Shown here piece by piece: positions 36,209 to 37,657 of a stretch of 64,000 bases of DNA; the stretch's first letter is position 1; the number at the start of each line of letters is the position of its first letter. The stretch lies in contig NZ_JACCFY010000001.1 in the NCBI RefSeq assembly GCF_013410745.1, positions 558,001 through 622,000 on the forward strand, read 5' to 3'. Made by a program: the position numbers and the translations under genes. The stretch is from Nesterenkonia xinjiangensis (GTDB taxonomy: Bacteria; Actinomycetota; Actinomycetes; Actinomycetales; Micrococcaceae). The notes beneath the pieces were generated by a model. That model saw only the letters and a program-made list of their open reading frames with translations, ran no database searches and was not told where the DNA came from.

Positions 36209-36243
36209 CCTGCTGACCCGCACACGCTGAAAAGTACGCACAG

Positions 36244-36270
36244 AGGCCCGCCGCGTGATGCGGCGGGCCT
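36244..36270 (+). terminator. Rho-independent terminator of sdhCDAB
   Basis: AGGCCCGCCGC (36244-36254), loop GTGAT, and GCGGCGGGCCT (36260-36270) form an 11-bp perfect stem followed by TTTGTG. It lies 35 bp after the sdhB stop. Confidence 0.9.
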
Positions 36271-36310
36271 TTGTGCGTCAGCAGACGGTGCGGCCAGTGC
36301 CCTTCCCCTG

Positions 36311-36380
36311 CGCAGATCGTCTCTTCGTTGCAGATCGTCTCCGGGTTCAGGGACGATCTGCAACGAAGAGACGATCTGCG
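36311..36380. repeat. 29-bp perfect inverted repeat (IR1) upstream of the AbiEi-like gene
   Basis: The arm at 36311-36339 and the arm at 36352-36380 are exact reverse complements with a 12-nt spacer. Each arm contains two copies of GATCGTC flanking TCTTCGTTGCA, so the whole element holds four GATCGTC words in mirror order. A second, related element lies at 37592-37657 on the other side of the gene. It is not a simple terminator: the sdhB terminator already lies just upstream and there is no T tract. Confidence 0.95.
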
Positions 36381-36526
36381 GCGGCGGAGAATGGGCCTGT
36401 GGAGAACGTCTGCAGGGAGCAGGCGATATGGGGCAGAGTGCTGGTCATGCTCACACGTCATCACCCGCGCATCAGTCTTCACGTCGCCGGTCCGGATGCT
36501 GATGGTGGCCACACGCCGGTGTCCGG
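36381..36526. other. Stretch between IR1 and the AbiEi-like gene
   Basis: The rest of the 318-bp gap after sdhB. It contains no complete gene. A neighbouring frame encodes text resembling an AbiEi-type N-terminal winged helix (VITRASVFTSP, then ATRRCPVEQ near 36500-36530) but is one base out of frame with the downstream gene, which could mean a frameshift in the gene's 5' end or chance. Confidence 0.35.
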
Positions 36527-37588
36527 TTGAGCAGGCAGGTGGACGCAGGCCAGATGCTTCGGCTCCGGCGCGGAGTCTACGTCGCCGCTCGAGACTGGAT
36601 GGAAGCACACCCTTGGGATCGTTCGGCGCTGGCGGTGGTTGCGACCGCTCTGGCTGATCCTCGCACCGTCTTCTGCCGCACCAGCGCACTTCTTCTCCAG
36701 GGCATCCCCCTTCTCACGCCGCCCCAGCGAGTCCACGTGCGGACGCTCCGAAGGAGCTCCGTCCGCCTCACACGCCAGACACCGATGACAGGCAGAACAG
36801 CGCCGGAGCGGCTCGTCAGGACCCTGGGGCTGCCTCCTGCGGCCGTGGCACGGCTCCGCGGCATCCCGACCCAACGGCATGAGCCGGTGATCCCACCCGA
36901 GCGGGTGAGAGACGACCTGCGGGAGCACTCGGCACAGAATCCCGCCTCCGCTGCCGAGACTCTGCTCCCTCGAGTTCATCTGCCCCGCACAGCCTCACCG
37001 CTGTGCGCTGGTCCAGAAGGCGGCTATCTGGTTGAGCCGCTGCCGCTGGCCACCGTGGACACGGTGACGCGTCTGCCGGCTCCCGACGCCGTCGTCGTAT
37101 TGGATGCCGTGGTGGCCCGACTCATGACTGACGGACTCGCGGAGAGGGACGCCCGGGCCCAGCTGCTCACCTGGTGGGGCCACGTCCCTACGATTCGCCG
37201 TCGAAGCCTCCTGGCCCAGCGGCTGGATTTCGCCGATCCGCGTGCCGAATCTCCCGGAGAGTCACTCTCCCGGTGGCGGATCCATGAGCTCGGATTCGTC
37301 GCCCCGGAGCTGCAGACGACCGTCTCTTCCGACGCCGGGCGGGCTCGGTTGGACTTCGAGTGGCGAGAAGCCGGCGTCGCCGGGGAGTTCGACGGTCGGT
37401 TGAAGTACGGAGCAGACTCAGGCCTCTCGGGTGAGGAAGCGGCCGATGCCGTGTACGCCGAGAAGCTTCGTGAGGATGCGATCAGGCGGACCGGGCGCGT
37501 CGTCGTGCGCTGGGGCTGGGAGCAGCTCCAACAGCCTGACGAGCTGGCACGGAGACTCACTCGCGCCGGCGTCCCCCGACGCCGCTGA
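36527..37588 (+). CDS. AbiEi-like N-domain / endonuclease-fold (DUF559-like) protein
   Basis: Up to 353 residues; start uncertain: TTG 36527, GTG 36539 or ATG 36554, none with a strong ribosome site. MLRLRRGVYVAA near the start and the VFCRTSALLLQGIPLL region match the type IV antitoxin-like AbiEi domain found in many actinobacterial single genes, though the usual first 25-30 residues (winged-helix part) are missing. The C-terminal third (LDFEWREAGVAGEFDGRLKYG, then VVVRWGWEQL) resembles DUF559/Vsr-like endonuclease folds with an acidic metal site. No partner toxin gene is adjacent. It is flanked closely by the two inverted repeats. Function unknown; a defence or regulatory role is only a guess. 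Confidence 0.7.
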   Translation: MSRQVDAGQMLRLRRGVYVAARDWMEAHPWDRSALAVVATALADPRTVFCRTSALLLQGIPLLTPPQRVHVRTLRRSSVRLTRQTPMTGRTAPERLVRTLGLPPAAVARLRGIPTQRHEPVIPPERVRDDLREHSAQNPASAAETLLPRVHLPRTASPLCAGPEGGYLVEPLPLATVDTVTRLPAPDAVVVLDAVVARLMTDGLAERDARAQLLTWWGHVPTIRRRSLLAQRLDFADPRAESPGESLSRWRIHELGFVAPELQTTVSSDAGRARLDFEWREAGVAGEFDGRLKYGADSGLSGEEAADAVYAEKLREDAIRRTGRVVVRWGWEQLQQPDELARRLTRAGVPRRR

Positions 37589-37591
37589 CCC

Positions 37592-37657
37592 CGGATCGTC
37601 TCTTCTTTGCGGATCGTCCCTGAATATCCGGACGATCCGCAAAGAAGAGACGATCTG
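37592..37657. repeat. 28-bp inverted repeat (IR2) downstream of the AbiEi-like gene
   Basis: Arms 37592-37619 and 37630-37657 pair over 28 positions with one G-T pair and a 10-nt spacer. The sequence is the same as IR1 except for changes that keep pairing: TTCGTTG/CAACGAA in IR1 is TTCTTTG/CAAAGAA here, and CAGATC/GATCTG is CGGATC/GATCCG in the inner copies. It begins 4 nt after the stop of the AbiEi-like gene and 17 nt past the end of the convergent YihY gene, so it could also act as a bidirectional terminator. Confidence 0.95.

Follow-up and report, generated by a model that had tools for sequence, protein, structure and literature searches.

Why should a single bacterial gene be bracketed by two long palindromes of the same family? 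This question is raised by a locus of Nesterenkonia xinjiangensis, which lies in a stretch of 64,000 nucleotides that we call the window. We compared the source genome (G000, 3.57 Mb) with other genomes of the genus and of the order. The features of the locus are as follows.

36236..36278, no strand assigned: separate hairpin after sdhB, probably the sdhB terminator, outside the GATCGTC family
36311..36380, no strand assigned: IR1, palindrome with arms of 29 nt and a loop of 12 nt; 62-nt core at 36315-36376
36447..36530, + strand: probable N-terminal part of the gene between the repeats, in another frame (apparent frameshift), within ORF 36255-36530, by comparison with the intact orthologue in G008
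36527..37588, + strand: gene between the repeats, a 353-aa open frame from TTG with an AbiEi-like N-terminus and a PD-(D/E)XK/DUF559-like C-terminus
37592..37657, no strand assigned: IR2, palindrome with arms of 28 nt including one G-T pair; 62-nt core at 37594-37655

The anatomy given in an earlier, sequence-only reading of the window was confirmed. The arms of IR1 are perfect, and in IR2 the 26 perfect pairs at 37594-37655 are extended to 28 by a G-T and a C-G pair. GATCGTC occurs four times in each repeat, arranged as mirror pairs. The differences between the repeats keep the pairing at two sites (TCTTC[G/T]TTGC[A/G]), matched on both arms. The predicted hairpins are very stable (-60 kcal/mol for IR1 and -53 kcal/mol for IR2). 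It was fair to say that the repeats bracket the gene almost exactly, because IR2 starts 5 nt past the stop of ORF 36527-37588 and IR1 ends about 70 nt before the ATG at 36447, where the apparent missing N-terminus begins in the other frame; the distance from IR1 to the TTG of the ORF is 150 nt. As had been stated, the window holds no further full copy: a search allowing up to three mismatches returned two matches, and none in 100 shuffles. A genome-wide search, which the same reading proposed, found seven copies in the source genome, so that IR1 and IR2 are not the only two; the reversed pattern used as a control has 0 copies genome-wide.

The family has a rigid design of 62 bp, GATCGTC-11-GATCGTC-12-GACGATC-11-GACGATC. 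With up to three mismatches this pattern occurs nine times in Nesterenkonia sp. PF2B19 (G008) and in none of the other 28 genomes of the genus. A covariance model built from 12 copies recovered the seven copies of G000 and ten in G008. Its weaker matches in seven other genomes are mostly other palindromes; one of them (G041, L061) resembles the family that lies beside a G041 gene. A pattern scan of GTDB returned 84 stretches, most of them single hits from unrelated phyla, and these we ascribe to chance. The G008 copies have the same GATCGTC words and their own spacers. In an alignment of 12 of the 17 copies, 92% of cells pair. Changes on both sides of a pair occupy 30 cells vs 11.3 in shuffles (0 of 500 as high), and two of the five covariation measures are unexceptional (9 double-change pairs, reached by 53 of 500 shuffles, and pair types, by 137 of 500); the relatedness of the copies is a caveat here.

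The 11-nt spacers were compared in 16 of the 17 copies, the C44 copy of G008 being of another length. For G000 the difference is 0.86 within a copy, from arm to arm, and 3.44 from copy to copy; the respective values in G008 are 1.89 and 2.42, and between the two species the difference is 6.1. The orthologous IR2 sites of the two species retain the words, and their spacers follow the consensus of each species, a pattern that looks like that of concerted or co-evolving repeats. The two genomes share further copy sites, namely after a gene that we take from its translation to be tatC, between a presumed mmsA and an iol-type gene, and between presumed gcvP and gcvT.

IR2 is common to both species, and IR1 is found in G000 only. 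The order of the locus is the same in both (sdhB, gene, palindrome, yihY). The gene is thus no recent cassette, because the G008 orthologue holds the same place, with IR2 present and IR1 absent; a mobile cassette boundary, as it had been suggested, does not agree with this. The comparison indicates that the palindromes alone come and go at this locus and that the gene stays. We do not favour a terminator or an assembly artefact: neither IR1 nor IR2 is followed by a T tract or was called as a terminator, sdhB has its separate hairpin, and IR2 is conserved in another species. A known Rfam RNA was rejected as well, since the scan gave seven matches, all weak and none near the gathering score.

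What is the gene between the repeats? Relatives of ORF 36527-37588 are encoded in 28 of the 30 Nesterenkonia genomes, and a profile search found them in 65 of 119 order-level genomes (37 of 56 genera). At the N-terminus, the PADLOC AbiEi model PDLC02225 matches all 25 relatives scanned; Pfam AbiEi_4 matches six of them at E 0.01, and the scores that were available lie below its cut-off. At the C-terminus, DUF559 is matched in three of 25 at E 0.01 (best 9.7e-6) and above the cut-off in one of ten order-level proteins; the window protein itself has no Pfam match to DUF559 or PD-(D/E)XK. The residues D276, E287, D289 and K293 are conserved in 75-76 of 77 proteins, the remainder being gaps. Together with the weak Pfam matches, these residues suggest a nuclease fold. 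The protein has no match in the PDB, no NCBIfam model was found among the 18 proteins scanned (8 + 10), and a single-sequence structure model was unusable (pLDDT 39). The neighbours encode an iron-sulphur (SdhB-like) protein and a BrkB-family protein, in the window and in G008 alike. An AbiEii nucleotidyltransferase toxin is not among the neighbours in either genome, nor is a methylase among those of the window gene. The window copy of the gene is probably broken, or else there is a sequence error at the frameshift.

The association between this gene family and palindromes of any sequence was assessed in two non-random sets: 63 gene regions of the genus, mostly the best of 103 match rows (several genes give two rows), and 68 order-level regions from the top of the profile-match list. 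In the genus set 37 of the 63 genes have a palindrome nearby, 12 of them on both sides. There are 50 palindromes within 300 nt of the gene ends in 37.8 kb vs 12 elsewhere in 344 kb; the former include some ordinary hairpins, such as the one of sdhB, and some of the latter are copies of the families. In the order set palindromes accompany 42 of 68 genes (13 on both sides), with 15 palindromes in 194 kb elsewhere; by our tally these 42 genes represent 21 of the 24 genera examined. Palindromes lie 3' and 5' of the genes about equally often (27 and 23 in the genus set, 28 and 28 in the order set).

Since the DNA near the genes is intergenic, we used intergenic gaps as a control. Palindromes occur in 49 of 121 flanking gaps vs 9 of 86 other gaps in the genus (p 9e-7) and in 34 of 71 vs 5 of 28 in 40 order-level regions (p 0.005). 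With a score of at least 18 the counts are 29/121 vs 4/86 (genus) and 20/71 vs 0/28 (order); if an 18-20-nt repeat is required, they are 15/121 vs 1/86 (p 0.002) and 8/71 vs 0/28 (p 0.06). The plain count gives a 38-fold excess. Because the gap comparison corrects for the intergenic nature of near-gene DNA, the true excess is three- to five-fold. The linkage between gene and palindrome is well supported; recognition and mechanism are what we infer from it.

Palindrome sequences differ between protein clades. Where a gene has palindromes on both sides, the 5' and the 3' one match each other in 21 of 27 pairs, representing 21 of 25 genes; among pairs taken from different genes the number is 8 of 800. 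If the proteins of two genes are at least 60% identical, the genes share a palindrome family in 18 of 22 cases; at 40-60% identity this holds for about 1% of 216 pairs. The Mantel correlation of palindrome family with protein is 0.28 (0 of 2000 permutations as high). In the underlying measure of pair similarity, ordinary hairpins lower the values of WIN and L224, and the two score below 0.5 although both carry GATCGTC words. Palindrome family therefore follows protein clade and changes fast, and shared descent alone would give a part of this agreement. The arms also repeat internally. In the 73 palindromes (of 106) with arms of at least 22 nt there is a sharp period of 19 nt (identity 0.535 vs 0.271, z 16), with z about 3 for each of the periods 18 and 20. 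GATCGTC, with its period of 18, is one case of a general design of four words per palindrome.

A second family, F5, illustrates the dispersal of copies. Its unit of 72 nt, starting TGTCGCAT, is present in 17, 12, 10, 8, 2, 1 and 1 copies in seven Nesterenkonia genomes (51 in total); an eighth genome has one weak match, and at E 1e-6 no copy was found in the remaining 22. G011 and G015 each have a gene of the AbiEi-like family that is followed directly on its 3' side by an F5 palindrome, and in both genomes two further copies lie within 10 kb of that gene (P 0.006 and 0.003, respectively). Among 19 F5 copies, flanking similarity ends about 4 nt from the unit, save for a G-rich outward skew. F5 is thus a discrete unit, because its copies share no flanking sequence past this distance. 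At loci L284-L304 the G-rich outward flanks are seen on both sides, past the border of the unit. At the site after tatC a copy is present in G010 and absent in G042. Among 36 usable copies, 16 lie between convergent and 16 between tandem genes, one lies between divergent genes, and three overlap an ORF call. These counts rest on crude gene calls, with 19 of the 21 F5 loci usable (contig ends truncate L286 and L298, and a 37th row, from L286, was left out), and the sole divergent case is the weak G041 match.

Several other palindromes were observed along the way. Two of them, L083 and L084, occupy the same place 3' of tatC in G007 and G041; they have the same outer arm, GATGACTCCGCGG, and differ from each other in the inner arm sequence, on both sides together. 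L062, L063, L064, L071 and L072 (G009, G004 and G006) belong to another palindrome family, CAGAGCGTCTC. The stretch L066:1501-1575 (G002:C1:2394500-2394574) is palindrome-like and adjoins a C-terminal fragment of a relative, as if it were the remnant of a decayed gene.

Outside the order, a relative matched only in its C-terminal third was found in Collinsella aerofaciens, which belongs to another class. Six palindromes of a single family surround this gene, four on its 5' side and two on its 3' side, with a pitch of about 80 nt. Of two other 50-kb stretches, one holds three more copies, located between convergent genes, and the second has none; BLAST places the palindrome at 11 sites of the 900-kb record. 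The tandem arrays in this record, NZ_OY725717.1, are as follows.

L376:2019-3561: array around the relative
L378:10908-11127: array in another intergenic place

A relative in Tsukamurella has no palindrome beside the gene. We rejected a phage or plasmid element: there was no phage match and no confirmed relative on a viral contig, and two records filed as plasmids have only partial C-terminal matches and carry core genes. Both of these records, NZ_OY725717.1 and NZ_LR134465.1, include ribosomal protein genes and appear to be chromosomal; RNA polymerase subunits are encoded in the first as well.

How can these observations be explained? With modest confidence, we lean towards IR1 and IR2 being REP-like palindromes that serve the protein of the intervening gene as its cognate target, in a REPtron-like unit of gene and palindromes. 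Its observed basis is a palindrome family of fixed architecture, statistically linked to the gene in many genera, with matching 5' and 3' copies, with agreement between palindrome family and protein clade, and with discrete dispersed units biased to the 3' side of genes. The AbiEi-type winged-helix N-terminus would recognize the palindrome, each clade its own; this is a natural guess because AbiEi proteins are described as binding to long inverted repeats in front of their own genes, at the promoter. The word to be recognized would stand twice per arm, 18-20 nt apart. The C-terminal PD-(D/E)XK-like (DUF559-like) domain may then nick or process the hairpin, followed by copying, and this would drive the spread of palindromes and keep their arms alike. 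The gene would stay put, and the short palindromes would appear, spread and change in concert at the 3' ends of other genes. Among the three guesses of the sequence-only reading, a recurrent protein-binding palindrome fits best: the recurrence stands, with copies genome-wide and families that track protein clades, and the binding we infer. A structured RNA, another of these guesses, may also apply, given how stable the hairpins are predicted to be.

A number of findings count against such a cognate unit. The window gene appears frameshifted, and its position has not moved between G000 and G008. At the threshold used, each set contains 26 genes without a palindrome (of 63 in the genus and of 68 in the order). 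We found no F5-clade gene in G020 and G010, with their 10 and 8 F5 copies, no gene matching the L083 and L084 palindromes in G007 and G041, and no gene flanked by CAGAGCGTCTC palindromes in G009, G004 and G006. Paired arm changes were not found in F5 either, so that a pressure on the hairpin, as suggested by the co-change of arms, is supported for the GATCGTC family only.

Alternatively, the protein could be an AbiEi-like autoregulator, the flanking palindromes its operators, the dispersed ones its regulon, and the nuclease-like domain incidental. The AbiEi match of all 25 relatives and the repetition of words within arms are consistent with this, and AbiEi of Streptococcus agalactiae is described as repressing its own promoter via inverted repeats (PMC3985639). 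Still, we consider operators alone unlikely, because palindromes are equally frequent 3' of the gene and dispersed copies sit 3' of other genes; in addition, the spacers pair too, which is needless for a plain operator, and copies form local clusters and arrays. The 3' position would suit an RNA-level element, with hairpins selected as transcript 3' ends or as processing or stabilizing signals and the gene merely one of their hosts. Their high predicted stability and the excess of paired changes in the GATCGTC family speak for it. In L235:4055-4104, L279:2949-2998 and L280:4137-4186 the gene-linked palindromes have an A run at the start and a T run at the end, and could act as terminators in both directions. 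Such an element leaves the enrichment at one gene family and the matching with clades unexplained, IR1 and IR2 lack a T tract, and the covariation is unexceptional by two measures and missing in F5; we regard this explanation as quite improbable.

The combination of AbiEi-like and nuclease-like domains also brings defence to mind, in which the nuclease would attack palindromes or cruciforms of invading DNA and the host copies would serve as decoys or marks. This is very improbable in our opinion: a matched target in the own genome would be cut, there are no phage relatives, and the inspected neighbours of the window gene include neither toxin nor methylase. Finally, the placement and copy behaviour of the palindromes are like those of REPs as described in PMC3733652, and classical REPs could be moved by a RAYT (Y1/HUH) transposase encoded elsewhere in the genome. 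PF01797 is absent from 29 of the 30 genus genomes, including G000, G008, G010, G011, G015 and G020, in a search in which 5 of 14 controls gave a signal; the exception, G005, is 79% complete. For Nesterenkonia this contradicts RAYT-driven REPs, provided that the search did not overlook a diverged HUH enzyme, and we give them hardly any credence; in Collinsella, which has an IS200/IS605 tnpA, a RAYT may be at work.

If the reading as a REPtron-like unit is right, its extension would be a second, independently evolved system of this kind across actinobacteria, in which a winged-helix/PD-(D/E)XK protein creates, spreads and homogenizes its own palindromes, one "word" per clade, and thus seeds the 3' ends of genes with long hairpins. 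We offer this extension tentatively, as one that may well prove too broad. We met no earlier account of the system in the open-licence PMC literature, which is without bioRxiv and has few subscription journals. REP-like palindromes without RAYT had no candidate enzyme, and a gene family is now tied to them by position, by the match of 5' and 3' copies and by clade. With this linkage, in a family that we saw in 37 of the 56 genera sampled, recognition can be put to a direct test. Should the protein mobilize or maintain its palindromes, this would be a new route by which bacterial genomes gain dispersed hairpins, and many genes now called hypothetical would acquire a role.

Among known systems, AbiE type IV toxin-antitoxin systems share with our gene the AbiEi-like winged-helix N-terminus and a long inverted repeat nearby. 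AbiEi of S. agalactiae is reported to bind inverted repeats with 23-bp half-sites and to repress the promoter (Dy 2014, PMC3985639). Here, in contrast, no AbiEii-like toxin is next to the window gene, the C-terminus resembles DUF559, and palindromes are also found 3' of the gene and dispersed. The C-terminus shares the conserved D...ExDGxxK...EKxR residues with the PD-(D/E)XK-like DUF559 (PF04480) and REase_MTES_1575 (PF18741), with most members below the threshold; unlike in those, it is fused to an AbiEi-like domain and linked to palindromes. CGTC-tagged REPs, according to the account in PMC3733652, were reported without a dedicated transposase, which is a likeness, but they are 20-40 bp long with an unpaired tag, whereas here CGTC lies inside the stem and in one family only.

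The closest likeness is to REPs and RAYTs. In the description of Di Nocera 2013 (PMC3733652), REPs are dispersed extragenic palindromes, mostly 3' of genes and between tandem or convergent ORFs, RAYT genes are flanked by matching repeats, and the families are species-specific, several per genome. Likewise, our palindromes are multiple, extragenic and dispersed (7 and 10 copies of the GATCGTC family, 51 of F5 in seven genomes), mostly 3' of genes in tandem or convergent arrangement; where palindromes stand on both sides of a gene, they belong to one family in 21 of 25 cases, and families are species-specific, with several per genome. The differences are that the gene matches AbiEi and DUF559 models rather than a Y1/HUH transposase, that the palindromes are about 60-75 nt long with two word repeats per arm, and that there are few copies (7-17) and no unpaired GTAG tag was seen in them. 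Because the defining transposase was tested for and is absent, we do not file the system as a member of the REP/REPtron kind, of which it looks like a variant by its apparent mode of action.
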